Positions 15,919 to 21,168 of a DNA stretch of 22,812 bases are shown here, in pieces. The first letter of the stretch is position 1; each line of letters opens with the position of its first letter. The notes under the pieces are model-generated. The model was not told where the DNA came from. It was given only the letters and a program-made list of their open reading frames with translations, and did not search any database. Source of the DNA: Candidatus Aerophobetes bacterium Ae_b3b (GTDB lineage: Bacteria > Aerophobota > Aerophobia > Aerophobales > AE-B3A); assembly GCA_005223085.1 (NCBI GenBank), contig NJBP01000036.1, positions 1 through 22,812 of the forward strand, written 5' to 3'. The position numbers and the translations under genes were made by a program.

Positions 15919-15959
15919 AATGTTTAAGAACTTGAAACCCTTTACCATAAAGATATTCC

Positions 15960-16005
15960 TGGTGCGCCTGACAGGACTCGAACCCGCGACAAGCGGTTTA
16001 GAAAA
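15960..16005 (-). pseudogene. 3' half of a tRNA-Arg (anticodon loop TCT to CCA): attachment-site remnant
   Basis: Read on the minus strand, 46 nt reproduce the 3' half of a tRNA: anticodon loop with TCT, 3' anticodon arm, GCGGGTTCGAGTCCTGT T arm, acceptor strand and CCA. It matches the intact tRNA-Arg(CCT) at 21092-21137 in 40 of 46 positions. Identity with a tRNA stops at the anticodon loop and unrelated sequence replaces the 5' half. Tyrosine integrases commonly cross over in the anticodon loop, so this is a likely att site. The next ~27 nt downstream of the tRNA end (15933-15959) also resemble the flank of the other two copies. The rest of the gene-free stretch 15919-16363 holds the short repeat at 16127 and the promoter at 16214. 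Confidence 0.8.
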
Positions 16006-16305: not shown

Positions 16306-16363
16306 CAAACGGGTGAAATGGTCCAAATTTCCTTATCGTAACGAACTTCGGAGGGTGAGTATA

Positions 16364-16729
16364 ATGGGTAGTTTTGAAAAACATTTATCCTTGGCTAGAG
16401 AGAAATTGTCTACTCTAAAAGAAGCTTATCAAAAAAGAAGATATACAATTGTAGGTGATTTAGGTACAAAAGTAGTAGAGCAATTGGTAGAAGCAGATGC
16501 TGCCAAAAACAATAGGCATTTTGGTACTCATTCTGATAGACATGAATATTCTAATAAGAATTTCCCAGTGGATATCAGTAGGGCAATGCGAAGAATCTGG
16601 TTTGCTTATGGAGATTTAGGATATGATGGAACCAATGGGGAAAGAGCAAAGTCTGTTATGCAGAATTTAAGAGTCATTTTAGACTTTTTTGAGAAAAGAT
16701 TCGGGGAGCAAGTTGAAAAGAATACTTAA
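16364..16729 (+). CDS. HEPN-like small protein, partner of the downstream MNT protein
   Basis: This 121-residue, mostly helical protein starts GSFEKHLSLAREKLSTLKEA. R51-HFGT-H56 fits the R-x4-6-H motif of HEPN nucleases, but it sits mid-protein rather than in the usual late helix, so catalytic use is uncertain. Later segments (ISRAMRRIWFAYGDLGYDG and KSVMQNLRVILDFFEKRFG) look like two more helices of a four-helix bundle. The ATG at 16364 is chosen for its GGAGG site; the frame extends further upstream without one. The MNT gene overlaps its end by 17 nt, indicating translational coupling. HEPN-MNT pairs are known toxin-antitoxin modules in which MNT modifies the HEPN toxin. I infer that role from pairing and context. 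Confidence 0.6.
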   Translation: MGSFEKHLSLAREKLSTLKEAYQKRRYTIVGDLGTKVVEQLVEADAAKNNRHFGTHSDRHEYSNKNFPVDISRAMRRIWFAYGDLGYDGTNGERAKSVMQNLRVILDFFEKRFGEQVEKNT

Positions 16730-17291
16730 GAGAATAGTAAAAGAGCTTTCAGTTATTAGTGAGATAAGATTGATCATTTTATATGGAAGCTTTGCCAGAG
16801 GGGATTATGGTCCAAAATCAGATATAGATTTATTTATCCTTACCACTAAACAAAGAACTCTAAATGAGATACAAAACAAAATAATTGATATAGAGGAAGA
16901 AATTGGAAAGAGTATCCAACCAACAATAAGAACAGAAAAGGAATTGAAAAAAACAGATATAGGATTGCTTCAAAACCTTCTGCAGGAAGGTAAGATACTA
17001 TATTTGAAAGAACCATTTGAAATATCTGCATCAGAGATTACCAAACAGAAACCTTATGTAATTTATACGTTTCAACTAAATTCTTTAAACCAGAAAACTA
17101 AGGCAAAATTCAACAGAGAATTATATACCCGAACTAAAGAGAAACATGTTTATCAAGGACTTTTAGAAGAAATTGGTGGACAAAGATTTTCTCCAGGATG
17201 TATAATCATACCCTTTAATAAGAGAAACATTGTAGAAAAATTCTTTAGAAGATACAAAATAAAATACGCAGCAGAAAATGTTTGGAAGTAG
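16713..17291 (+). CDS. Minimal nucleotidyltransferase (MNT) domain protein
   Basis: This 192-residue protein has an N-terminal polymerase-beta-type nucleotidyltransferase domain: ILYGSFARGDYGPKSDIDLFIL carries the GS motif (25-26) and the metal-binding DxD (Asp37, Asp39). The start is taken as TTG 16713, inside the end of the HEPN-like gene, because GGGGAG lies just upstream; an earlier in-frame TTG at 16689 lacks a site. A C-terminal domain of about 90 residues (YVIYTFQLNSL, then GLLEEIGGQRFSPGCIIIP and ENVWK) goes beyond the compact MntA form. From memory it resembles stand-alone MNT proteins of archaea. In HepT/MntA systems the MNT protein neutralises the toxin by nucleotide transfer; this is a plausible but unproven role here. 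Confidence 0.75.
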   Translation: MKRILKRIVKELSVISEIRLIILYGSFARGDYGPKSDIDLFILTTKQRTLNEIQNKIIDIEEEIGKSIQPTIRTEKELKKTDIGLLQNLLQEGKILYLKEPFEISASEITKQKPYVIYTFQLNSLNQKTKAKFNRELYTRTKEKHVYQGLLEEIGGQRFSPGCIIIPFNKRNIVEKFFRRYKIKYAAENVWK

Positions 17292-17407
17292 CAGGAACCT
17301 ATCCTCTTTACTCAAAAACAGAAATTCCAAAAAATTCTTTGCAATGGGAGAAAAAGATTTGTAGGGAGGAACTATTAAGAGCTCTGGATATTTTGTGTAA
17401 AAGACTA

Positions 17408-17508
17408 GTCACAAATTGGTCACAAAAGGGGGAATTAAGAAAGTGACCGAAAAGGATAGGCGGTGAAACCATTTATAGTAAAGGGATTGCTGGTGCGCCT
17501 GGCAGGAC
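17408..17508. repeat. 101-bp direct repeat, copy 1 (tRNA-Arg 3' end plus flank)
   Basis: This block is 97/101 identical to 21009-21109. Its last 18 nt (17491-17508) are the 3' terminus of a tRNA-Arg including CCA, read on the minus strand; tRNA similarity then stops abruptly. Mismatches to copy 2 are at 17421, 17430, 17484 and 17494. In one plus-strand frame the block ends an open stretch (17249-17446) with KRLVTNWSQKGELRK and a stop, which might be the tail of a lost gene. Copies 1 and 2 bound the rsgA-methyltransferase-cupin unit; this copy also closes the HEPN/MNT unit. Confidence 0.85.
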
Positions 17509-17581
17509 GTTGTTAGAACTTTTTTCGAAGAAGATATAGAGATCCCAATCTACGATATTCCGCTACAACAACGGGTGAGAC

Positions 17582-17618
17582 CACCCTAACCCAAATCTCA
17601 GTATTTGTCAATCTGGTG
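17582..17618. repeat. Island motif, copy R1
   Basis: This 37-bp block matches R2 (20921-20957) in 33 of 37 positions. Its core CCAAATCTCAG...CAATCTGGT matches R3 (18244-18270) in 23 of 27. All three copies have the same orientation. R1 lies beyond the 3' end of the cupin gene, 74 bp from the 101-bp repeat. Read on the minus strand it contains TTGACA, 17 bp, TAGGGT, so it could also be a promoter remnant. The rest of the gene-free stretch 17292-17673 is the 101-bp repeat and unassigned sequence. Confidence 0.6.
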
Positions 17619-18243: not shown

Positions 18244-18270
18244 CCAAATCTCAGTACTCGCGAATCTGGT
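18244..18270. repeat. Island motif, copy R3
   Basis: This 27-bp core is related to R1 and R2 and sits immediately upstream of the cupin gene. R1 and R3 therefore bracket the cupin as a block of about 660 bp, and R3 and R2 bracket the methyltransferase-rsgA block. R3 lacks both the TTGACA and the TAGGGT hexamers seen in the other copies. Confidence 0.55.
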
Positions 18271-18544: not shown

Positions 18545-19282
18545 TCAGTACTTGGCTGGATTTAGAACATATATTGCCCATCCCATGTATTCACGGCCAT
18601 ATCTAAGATACTCATCCTGAGCTTTGTGAAGATGGTCAATGACCTCCTGACGTTCTGGATGTTCTGGATTCTCCTCTAACCATCGAATGAGTCCATACCA
18701 GTTATCCGCTTCATATCTATCCCAGTCGTCATGGCTGGCTCGTACCACATATTCAAAGTCAAAATCCTCCTCACGTGCGATTTGCCAGAGCTCGTGCTCC
18801 GTGTGGACCTGCTGTGTTTCTGCGTATTCTGGAGGAATCTGTTGCTGGAGCCAGTATGGCTCCCCTATGACGAGTTTTCCTTTTGGGTGAATCACTTCCT
18901 TCATGGCACGAATGGTTGGTCTATACCCACCCCAGATGAAGGATGCTCCTACGCATGCGGCAATATCAAAGACCTGCTTCTCAAATGAATGCTCGGACGC
19001 ATTTGCACAAATAATCTCAATACGATTAGTCAATCCGAGTTTAGACATCTTTTTTTTGGCCCGGTTGCAGGCATGCTCACGAATATCGACTCCTGTTCCG
19101 CAAACACCAAATTGCTTTGCCCAGAGCGCCAACACCTCGCCATAACCACAGCCAAACTCGATGACGCGGCTGCCTTCCTTAAGTCCCAAGACTCTGCCAA
19201 TAGTGAGTACTTTCTCTGGTGTGGAGGGATTGACTAATTCCATGTAGCGCTCTGAAATATTGACCAAATCAAAGAAATTCAT
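18545..19282 (-). CDS. Class I SAM-dependent methyltransferase
   Basis: This 245-residue protein has a Rossmann-type SAM-binding fold. Motif I is RVIEFGCGYGEVLAL (GCG at 44-46), an acidic end of strand 2 lies in GTGVDIREHA, and a motif II-like segment lies in VFDIAACVGASFIWGG. Then comes KEVIHPKGKLVIGEPYW, the usual post-motif III region of UbiE/SmtA-like enzymes. The acidic, Trp- and Tyr-rich C-terminal third probably forms the substrate cap. The acceptor is unknown; it resembles uncharacterised YjhP-like proteins. The ATG at 19282 overlaps the stop of the preceding truncated gene (ATGA), so translation is probably coupled. It is the last gene of the rsgA operon, and the composition differs from the flanking chromosome. 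Confidence 0.85.
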   Translation of the reverse strand: MNFFDLVNISERYMELVNPSTPEKVLTIGRVLGLKEGSRVIEFGCGYGEVLALWAKQFGVCGTGVDIREHACNRAKKKMSKLGLTNRIEIICANASEHSFEKQVFDIAACVGASFIWGGYRPTIRAMKEVIHPKGKLVIGEPYWLQQQIPPEYAETQQVHTEHELWQIAREEDFDFEYVVRASHDDWDRYEADNWYGLIRWLEENPEHPERQEVIDHLHKAQDEYLRYGREYMGWAIYVLNPAKY

Positions 19283-19518
19283 CTCCTACATTCTCCTTTC
19301 ATTGTCTTGGGAAATGTATATTGAATCCGCATTCCCGACTTAGGCTCTAAATCCTCGAAGAGCCTTTCTATCTGCCACATTGTATTGGACGCCGTCTGGT
19401 TTTCAAAAACCCACTCACTTCTGTATTCTGAAGAAAGAGGATATTTCTCATTCCACAAAGGATATTTTTTCTTAGTATGTTTGTTGTTAGATGCATTTAA
19501 GGTATAGTTTTTCTGCAT
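19279..19518 (-). pseudogene. Truncated N-terminus of a second SAM-dependent methyltransferase
   Basis: This 79-residue frame starts at ATG 19518 behind AAGGAA. The segment YPLSSEYRSEWVFENQTASN followed by MWQIERLFEDLEPKSGMRI matches, from family knowledge, the N-terminal signature of methyltransferases of the form YPRSSKYDPEWVLENQMGPN...L.PGMRVLDLGCG. Just where motif I (LDLGCG) should begin, the frame runs into QYTFPKTMKGECRR and stops. The SAM-binding domain is therefore missing. It lies 14 nt after rsgA and overlaps the intact methyltransferase by 4 nt. It is probably a deletion remnant that now serves only to couple translation. Confidence 0.65.
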
Positions 19519-19532
19519 TTTCTTTTCCTTTT

Positions 19533-20597
19533 TTATTGGTATTTCTTCATTTTCCTTGACCACTGACTGATCTTCTTCCATTTCTCCTCTTCAGCCCGGC
19601 GCGCTTTTTGGTCCTTGCGGGTTGCCAGATATCGAAGTTCCTTTTTCAGTTTGAGGTAGCTTTGAAATCGCTTGCTTTCGAGGGTGCCCTTTCTGAGAGC
19701 CTCTTGAACAGCACAGCCTGGTTCACTTTGATGGCTGCAGTCTCGAAAACGGCATCTCAAAGTAAGCTCCTCAATATCCTTAAAGGTTGTTTGAAAGCCG
19801 CTACGTTCACCCCACACCTGAATCTCGCGCATACCGGGATTGTCGACAATCATTCCCCCGCTCGATAGAATAATGAGTTCCCGATTGGAGGTGGTATGTC
19901 TTCCCCGATTTTCTATCTTCCGGACCGAAGAGACTCGTTGACGTTCTCGCCCCAGAAGACTATTGATGATGGTTGACTTGCCGACCCCTGAGGATCCCAA
20001 GAGAGAGGCTGTCTTTCCTCTGCCCAAGTATCTCCACAGTATATTAAGTCCCTCTCCCTTCTTGGCACTCATTGGATGAATTGAAACACCGAGAGCCACT
20101 GATTCGATTTCTTCCACGTGCTTCTCAACCTGAGGACAAAGGTCAGTTTTGTTCAGGACAACCACGGGATTCACACCCCTATCCCAGGCAAGGGTGAGAT
20201 ACCTCTCAATCCGTCGGAGACTGAAATCTGCATCCAGCCCGCTTACGATAAAAGCAGTGTCGATGTTAGCAGCAACAACTTGCTCCTCAGTGGTCTCACC
20301 TGCCACTTTGCGGGAAAAACCGTTCCTCCTGGGAAGGAGTGCATGAATCGTTGCCCTGCCCTCATGTGGCCTTAGGGATGCTGCTACCCAGTCTCCCACT
20401 TTCGGAAACGCACTTTTCGATGAGGAGCTATGGCGAAACTTTCCCGAAACCACAGCTCTAAATTCTCCATACTCTGAGTAGACTAGGTAGAGCAGTTTCT
20501 GTTCATTAGCAACTCTGACAGGAGATAGACCTTCCTCACTGTATGTTCGAAAATAATCCTGAAAAAACGAATTCCATCCTAAATCTTTTAGATTCAT
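19533..20597 (-). CDS. rsgA: Ribosome small-subunit-dependent GTPase A (RsgA/YjeQ family)
   Basis: This 354-residue circularly permuted GTPase acts in late 30S subunit maturation. An N-terminal OB-like region (about 1-100, VGDWVAA at 67-73) is followed by G4 NKTD (149-152), G5 SAK (177-179), G1 GSSGVGKS (201-208), a switch region RGRHTTSNRELI and G3 DNPG (252-255). Then comes the zinc knuckle C282-x4-C287-S-H289-x5-C295 and a basic C-terminal helix. The start LKDLGWNSFFQDYF is typical of the longer accessory RsgA paralogues rather than the core copy. The ATG at 20597 follows AAGGAGG. It is first in an operon with a complex leader, inside the tRNA-linked island, so it is probably an acquired extra copy; the host's core copy is not visible here. 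Confidence 0.93.
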   Translation of the reverse strand: MNLKDLGWNSFFQDYFRTYSEEGLSPVRVANEQKLLYLVYSEYGEFRAVVSGKFRHSSSSKSAFPKVGDWVAASLRPHEGRATIHALLPRRNGFSRKVAGETTEEQVVAANIDTAFIVSGLDADFSLRRIERYLTLAWDRGVNPVVVLNKTDLCPQVEKHVEEIESVALGVSIHPMSAKKGEGLNILWRYLGRGKTASLLGSSGVGKSTIINSLLGRERQRVSSVRKIENRGRHTTSNRELIILSSGGMIVDNPGMREIQVWGERSGFQTTFKDIEELTLRCRFRDCSHQSEPGCAVQEALRKGTLESKRFQSYLKLKKELRYLATRKDQKARRAEEEKWKKISQWSRKMKKYQ

Positions 20598-20845
20598 TGT
20601 TAGATTCCTCCTTATAAGGTCCTTGGGTGAGGACTCACAGAGGAATCCAAAAGGTATGCAATGAAAACGGCGTAATACCTTGGATTGGTAACAGAGGTGG
20701 GCTCCGCACGAATCACGAAGCTAGGACAAAAGCTACCTTAGCAAGAACGCAACTACCTCTGTGAGCCTCAGAGAAGAACAACCTGGACAATAATGCTCGC
20801 AGTGACACTCATAAAAACCTCCCGTGATCATAGTATATCAGAATT
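20598..20845 (-). ncRNA. Structured leader of the rsgA operon with alternative stems
   Basis: From the predicted start near 20845 the leader runs about 250 nt. Segment A (20755-20765) can pair with segment B (20691-20698, 8 bp, ACAGAGGT/ACCTCTGT) or with segment C (20634-20643, 10 bp, CTCACAGAGG/CCTCTGTGAG), but not both. Between B and C lies a strong hairpin (20675-20686 with 20644-20657, 12 bp and a 2-nt bulge). Segment A begins within 3 nt of the leader-peptide stop codon. The rsgA ribosome site (20607-20613) overlaps the palindrome CCTTATAAGG (20610-20619). No U-tract is present, so control of translation seems likelier than termination. I recognise no known riboswitch class. Confidence 0.55.
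20768..20812 (-). CDS. Predicted 14-residue leader peptide MSVTASIIVQVVLL
   Basis: ATG 20812 is preceded by GGGAGG at 5-nt spacing, one of the best ribosome sites in the region, and ends at TGA 20768-20770. The peptide is rich in Ile, Val and Leu. It lies between the promoter (20852-20880) and segment A of the leader RNA, so a ribosome paused here would cover segment A. Two precedents fit: branched-chain amino-acid attenuators, and macrolide-sensing Erm leaders whose pause motifs are IFVI or IAVV. SIIV at residues 6-9 is reminiscent of the latter. The reading is an inference from position and composition. Confidence 0.55.
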   Translation of the reverse strand: MSVTASIIVQVVLL

Positions 20846-20851
20846 GTTGGT

Positions 20852-20880
20852 AGCATATCATACGCGGGCGATGATGTCAA
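20852..20880 (-). promoter_or_regulatory. Consensus promoter of the rsgA operon
   Basis: A perfect TTGACA (20875-20880), a 17-bp spacer and TATGCT (20852-20857) lie on the minus strand, upstream of the leader peptide. Motif R2 begins 40 bp further upstream. Confidence 0.75.
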
Positions 20881-20920
20881 CCTTGAATCCGAGAATTCGA
20901 CGGAAGCATAATTCTGAGCG

Positions 20921-20957
20921 CACCCTAACCCAAATCTCAGCACCTGTCAATCTTGTG
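20921..20957. repeat. Island motif, copy R2
   Basis: This copy is 33/37 identical to R1 in the same orientation, and sits 51 bp inside the 101-bp repeat copy 2, upstream of the rsgA promoter. On the minus strand it too reads TTGACA, 17 bp, TAGGGT. Confidence 0.6.
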
Positions 20958-21008
20958 CTCGATGTGATGTGTCCGCTTCTTTATTTGCAACCCGGAATGA
21001 CAAGGGTG

Positions 21009-21109
21009 GTCACAAATTGGTGACAAAAGGAGGAATTAAGAAAGTGACCGAAAAGGATAGGCGGTGAAACCATTTATAGTAAAGAGATTGCTGGCGCGCC
21101 TGGCAGGAC
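21009..21109. repeat. 101-bp direct repeat, copy 2 (overlaps the intact tRNA-Arg)
   Basis: This copy is 97/101 identical to 17408-17508. It comprises 83 bp downstream of the tRNA plus the last 18 nt of the functional tRNA-Arg. Because identity continues well past the tRNA into flanking DNA, the two copies look like equivalent ends of related elements inserted one after the other. Simple short-core integration would repeat only the core. Confidence 0.85.
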
Positions 21110-21168
21110 TTGAACCCGCGACCCGCGGTTTAGGAAACCGCTGCTCTATCCTCCTGAGCTACAGGCGC
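21092..21168 (-). tRNA. tRNA-Arg (anticodon CCT), CCA encoded
   Basis: The folded minus strand gives an acceptor stem GCGCCTG/CAGGCGC, D stem GCTC/GAGC, anticodon stem GCGGT/ACCGC with loop TTCCTAA (anticodon CCT, reading AGG), variable loop GGGTC, and T stem GCGGG/CCTGC with loop TTCAAGT. Discriminator G and CCA follow directly in the DNA. All four arms pair, with one G-T in the T stem, so the gene is intact: 74 nt plus the 3-nt CCA tail. A promoter lies at 21219-21247. Its 3' end is the anchor of the accessory region. Confidence 0.96.

Follow-up and report, generated by a model that had tools for sequence, protein, structure and literature searches.

A putative leader-peptide-controlled translational attenuator upstream of a second-type RsgA GTPase gene

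The window analyzed here, a 22,812-nt stretch of the Candidatus Aerophobetes bacterium Ae_b3b genome, carries an rsgA gene on its minus strand (19533..20597). The 354-aa product matches TIGR00157 (165.9 bits; cut-off 100) and PF03193 (6.6e-50), has a C-terminal Cys/His zinc-type motif, and shows in translation the circularly permuted motif order that identifies an RsgA GTPase (G4 NKTD, then the P-loop GSSGVGKST, then DNPG). In a phylogenetic tree, it falls among long, second-type RsgA proteins (hereafter RsgA2; group support 0.947), apart from an RsgA1 clade (support 1.0). RsgA2 proteins resemble housekeeping RsgA (YjeQ/CpgA) in being circularly permuted 30S-subunit GTPases that belong to TIGR00157 and PF03193, but they are ~50 aa longer, form a separate group in the tree, and frequently have leaders. 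RsgA2 frequently co-occurs with RsgA1. No match to RsgA1 was found in the window genome (assembly 88.6% complete), where the copy described here is the sole RsgA found, nor was there a strong match to the window protein in 16 genomes of the same genus, family, and order; for these two reasons, the gene looks acquired. The host lineage, i.e., the window genome and its 16 nearest relatives, seemingly lacks any housekeeping RsgA. RsgA2 matches are present in 211 of 246 genomes of one Bacilli order and in 176 of 398 genomes of the class, and plasmid-borne copies occur, for example, in Brevibacillus marinus and Lysinibacillus fusiformis. On the L. fusiformis plasmid pMGMM7, rsgA2 immediately precedes the fosfomycin resistance gene fosM.

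From its sequence, the rsgA region resembles an island that has entered the genome at a tRNA gene. A tRNA-Arg gene (anticodon CCT; 21095..21168, minus strand; Rfam tRNA, 63.7 bits) adjoins it, and a putative attachment-type direct repeat of 108 nt that includes the tRNA gene 3' end (21002..21109) recurs with 94% identity on the far side (17401..17508). Between the two copies lie rsgA, a methyltransferase fragment, a class I SAM-dependent methyltransferase (18545..19282, minus strand; PF13649, 2.9e-14), and a 181-aa protein without a family match. The fragment (19279..19581, minus strand) is a truncated remnant of 100 aa that matches no family and is apparently the N-terminal part of a SAM-dependent methyltransferase. 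Methyltransferases had been proposed as part of the regulated system, a suggestion that we rejected, because, at the homologous loci examined, rsgA is not followed by them. No integrase was recognised in the window. A third repeat copy (15933-16005; 84% over 73 nt) is present beside these two, and the repeats with the tRNA-Arg(CCT) 3' end look like the marks of tandem islands at one tRNA gene. On the plus strand between repeats (16313-17291), a 138-aa open reading frame (ORF) overlaps a minimal nucleotidyltransferase related to the MntA antitoxin (NF047752; 41.7 bits, below the cut-off of 60), possibly a HEPN/MNT-like toxin-antitoxin pair. A short repeat of the CTGAGATTTGGGTTAGGGTG type also occurs around the rsgA region (17576-17618, 18244-18270, and 20915-20957); a search with E up to 1e-5 found none elsewhere in the genome.

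The region upstream of rsgA has the anatomy of a leader-peptide system, all on the minus strand. A sigma-70-type promoter (20852..20880; TTGACA from 20880, TATGCT to 20852) matches the consensus at 10 of 12 positions, with a 17-nt spacer and an extended -10 TG; four promoter-like sites lie in the region, compared with 1.0 +/- 1.0 in shuffles. A Shine-Dalgarno (SD) sequence, GGGAGG (20818..20823), is followed 5 nt further on by the ATG of a 14-codon leader ORF encoding MSVTASIIVQVVLL (20768..20812; ATG at 20812, stop to 20768), so that a short ORF with its own SD stands between the promoter and rsgA. Segment A, GGCTCACAGAGG (20756..20767), a putative anti-sequestor, adjoins the leader stop codon on its 3' side. 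Further along come segment B, ACCTCTGT (20691..20698), a hairpin, AATCCAAGGTAT / ATACCTTTTGGATT (~20644..20686), seen in the minimum-free-energy structure and by direct reading, and segment C, TTGGATTCCTCTGTGAGTC (20632..20650), whose SD-pairing part is overlapped by the 3' arm of that hairpin. The SD region of rsgA, GGAGGAATCTAA (20600..20611), contains AAGGAGG upstream of the ATG at 20597. Each of these parts is present at or near where the original prediction had placed it. An Rfam family search of the window returned the tRNA alone, plus one sub-threshold chance match on the opposite strand, and a known riboswitch or leader was thus rejected. Transcription attenuation was likewise rejected for the window, since no intrinsic terminator was found in its leader ahead of rsgA.

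Two pairings compete for segment C. Its 3' part, CCTCTGTGAG(TC) (20643-20632), forms 10 perfect pairs with A, as originally proposed, and 12 when one G-U is counted. The 5' part can instead bind the rsgA SD region: TTGGATTCCTCT (20650-20639) and GGAGGAATCTAA (20611-20600) form 12 contiguous pairs, two of them G-U. CCTCT is common to both halves of C, and, judging from these complementarities, C should pair either with A, leaving the SD open, or with the SD, closing it, and never with both at once. We held A and the SD fixed and dinucleotide-shuffled the spacer between them 400 times; none of the 400 shuffles reached the combined A:C and C:SD score (p = 0.002). Folding energy of the whole leader is mildly unusual at most (z = -1.8), and so the evidence for a switch lies in its specific geometry and in its conservation. 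The original prediction had recognised the alternative partners of A but had overlooked the C:SD pairing, which would place the control point at translation, because it is the rsgA SD that C sequesters. The 8-bp A:B pairing that it had also described is present in the window, but B is absent from the homologous leaders that we read; we therefore rejected B as an essential segment, and its role is doubtful.

Leader ORFs and stems were looked for upstream of homologous genes, and both were found. For the ORFs, we counted those with an ATG start, a strict SD, and a length of 5-40 codons in the 350 nt upstream of each gene. Such ORFs precede 47/70, 21/90, 15/33, and 12/27 RsgA2 genes in four samples (95 of 220 in total), compared with 21/350, 16/450, 0/165, and 1/135 shuffled upstream regions (38 of 1,100). 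Housekeeping rsgA genes of the same order have none (0 of 30); with a looser SD definition, the counts are 51 of 70 RsgA2 loci and 2 of 30 housekeeping genes. These counts are not independent, the species being related by descent, and we therefore took distinct peptides for the switch test. Among 49 distinct leader ORFs, 13 had an A/C/SD switch at p <= 0.05 (2.5 expected) and 7 at p <= 0.01 (0.5 expected). No leader ORF was recognisable at more than half of the RsgA2 loci sampled, and many loci that do have one fail the strict A/C/SD test.

The three segments vary in sequence while both pairings are kept in, for example, the window, L230 (A GATCATAGAGG, C AAAGATTCCTCTATGATC, SD GGAGGAATCTTT), L247 (A GTCACGGAG, C GGATTCTTCCGTGAC, SD GGGGGAATCC), L094 (A TCAGTTACGGAG, C ATCTTCCGTAACTGA, SD GCGGAGGAT), L036 (A TTTACAGG, C CCTGTAAA, SD TTTTACAGGAG), L203, and L147; the C motif GGATTCCTCYGTGATC is also present in homologs. 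From these concerted changes, A appears often to be a partial copy of the SD region, sited where the leader ORF ends. A strict C-SD pattern search of 398 Bacilli genomes gave three sites, all three before RsgA2, and a reversed control gave none. Switches with compensatory changes were found in Bacilli and in other lineages, and the design occurs in several bacterial phyla. Other leaders look different. In L006, L105, and related Bacilli, leaders of ~300 nt contain a leader ORF and, by reading, two apparent intrinsic terminators, possibly a transcription-attenuation version of the same control on this branch of RsgA2. Five actinobacterial RsgA2 leaders (L025, L068, L069, L071, and L072) encode related peptides, M[IT]A..LRA ... 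PAPA, and have no A/C/SD switch; they may represent another attenuator design. A homolog from an ANME-2 metagenome-assembled genome (51% identity) has no convincing leader.

To relate ribosome position to switching, we folded each leader in a thermodynamic model with the mRNA blocked as by a ribosome at successive codons. In most members, a ribosome up to about codon 8-12 gave A:C, and later positions gave C:SD. For the window, one folding run gave near-complete A:C at codons 1-7 and C:SD from codon 10-11, with both pairings mixed at 8-9 in between; a second run, with other ends to the folded stretch, gave weaker A:C (0.4-0.6 for codons 1-7, declining by 8-9), and the balance between the two pairings in the window is sensitive to the 3' end chosen for folding. 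Leaders L147 and L233 showed no clear switching in the simulation. With no ribosome, the window folds into the OFF state, in which C:SD forms and the early leader codons mask A, but several homologs fold ON. The model thus predicts that a ribosome early in the leader favours A:C (ON) and that one near the peptide end favours C:SD (OFF). The earlier proposal that a stalled ribosome blocks A fits the second of these positions; an early stall is predicted to leave A free and rsgA on. Since A and C are transcribed ahead of the SD, folding during transcription should lean towards A:C as long as A is free. From the modelled positions and the folds without a ribosome, the signal would thus be early stalling or failure to complete the leader.

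What might cause such stalling? The window peptide has Ile, Val, or Leu at seven of its last eight codons, and the modelled geometry would accept any early stall. A shortage of charged Ile, Val, or Leu tRNA could accordingly stall the leader ribosome and switch rsgA on, and branched-chain amino-acid limitation had indeed been suggested as a signal. Homologous leaders, however, share no common amino acid (e.g., MHLLTNGKDGRRCPRLEDLS, MIAGRKNS, MRKTEIVLIHPPFKW, and MKISGILGSEWHFGLN), where amino-acid attenuation would conserve its codons, and rsgA is not a biosynthetic gene. For lack of a shared amino acid, we rejected this explanation as distinctly improbable. The Ile/Val share of codons 2-10 is nevertheless 23%, versus 13% in the rest of the peptides. 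The window peptide has SIIV at codons 6-9, and IAVIV and TSIVEI occur among the leaders; to our eye, these resemble the Erm-type stalling motifs IFVI and IAVV, known from the ErmC and ErmA leaders. Motif likeness and Ile/Val richness point, by analogy, to tunnel- or peptidyl-transferase-binding antibiotics as candidate inducers. Ribosome-targeting antibiotics or translation stress would fit these leaders better than amino-acid shortage, and a response to such drugs or stress, already put forward in the original prediction, is the most plausible reading.

A drug-independent sensor of translation capacity would use the same parts. Few active 30S subunits would mean little initiation on the leader, A would stay free, and RsgA would rise in a homeostatic feedback. 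RsgA is a 30S maturation factor that acts on the 30S subunit, leader SDs are strong, the peptides are weakly conserved (synonymous fraction 31%, 23% expected), and in the model many members form A:C when the ribosome is early on the leader or absent. Yet the window without a ribosome folds into C:SD, which is OFF, and the Ile/Val-rich early codons suggest stalling that depends on the peptide; we consider such a sensor unlikely, if less so than amino-acid attenuation. Any single leader could also be accidental, with a short ORF and complementary stretches arising by luck in a long 5' region and regulating nothing, and the mild overall folding z-score would agree with that. Against chance stand the shuffle test in the window, the family-wide enrichment and compensatory pairing, and the empty housekeeping rsgA control, which together leave it very improbable.

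We therefore favour, as the probable explanation, a leader-peptide-controlled translational attenuator of an RsgA2 GTPase, the likely signal being a ribosome-targeting antibiotic or comparable translation stress; as such, the attenuator originally predicted upstream of rsgA on an apparent island is borne out in kind. Transcription would start ~30 nt upstream of the leader ORF. When the leader is translated to its end, the ribosome would cover A, leaving C to pair with the rsgA SD and keeping rsgA off. With a ribosome stalled at an early codon, or with translation impaired in general, A would remain free and capture C once it is transcribed; with A:C formed, the rsgA SD would emerge unpaired and rsgA would be translated. 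RsgA2, a 30S-subunit GTPase, might then help to restore ribosomes under the drug or stress. We infer the direction of the switch from the folding model, and its inducer and benefit are proposed in the same spirit.

Known attenuators offer close parallels. Those of ermC, ermB, and ermA likewise have a short leader ORF preceded by its own SD, depend on a stalled ribosome, and form alternative hairpins by which the SD of a gene related to the ribosome is either hidden or exposed. Stalling in the ermB leader disrupts a helix there and releases the following segment (PMC8274638), whereas for the rsgA2 homologs three segments (A, C, and SD) are enough and an early stall would keep A free; their target is an rRNA-maturation GTPase and not a methylase. 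The logic of 2:3 versus 3:4 pairing in the trp leader is the same, with an end-of-leader ribosome giving OFF and an early stall giving ON, but the rsgA2 switch would act on an SD in place of a terminator, and its leaders share no amino acid. In Actinobacteria, the upstream ORF of whiB7/wblC also senses translation inhibitors; that system uses a transcription terminator and a transcription factor, whereas the rsgA2 switch would act directly on rsgA. The WblC regulon of Streptomyces coelicolor includes an RsgA/EngC paralog (PMC7157823, PMC10727445); this paralog, SCO6149, is WblC- and tetracycline-dependent and SCO5211 is not (PMC7157823), which does not imply that SCO6149 belongs to the RsgA2 clade.

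In the literature searched, mostly papers outside subscription journals, we found no published attenuator or leader control for any rsgA, and novelty is claimed provisionally; the S. coelicolor paralog was the single link that emerged. On a wider view, to which we give about even chances, RsgA2 proteins would be widespread, unrecognised ribosome factors inducible by translation inhibitors, encoded by chromosomes, plasmids, and islands in different phyla and switched on by a dedicated family of leader-peptide attenuators, each with a leader ORF whose end mimics the SD region and vies with it for one anti-SD segment. Work on RsgA has treated it as a housekeeping factor in 30S assembly; the genes for erm methylases, ABC-F proteins, and HflX are induced when drugs hit the ribosome. 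A conserved ribosome-sensing switch, if true, would put RsgA2 beside them. It would also represent a trp-style geometry that distant bacteria use to control translation initiation, and would make RsgA2 a family of candidate intrinsic tolerance factors open to testing, with the leader as a ready reporter system.
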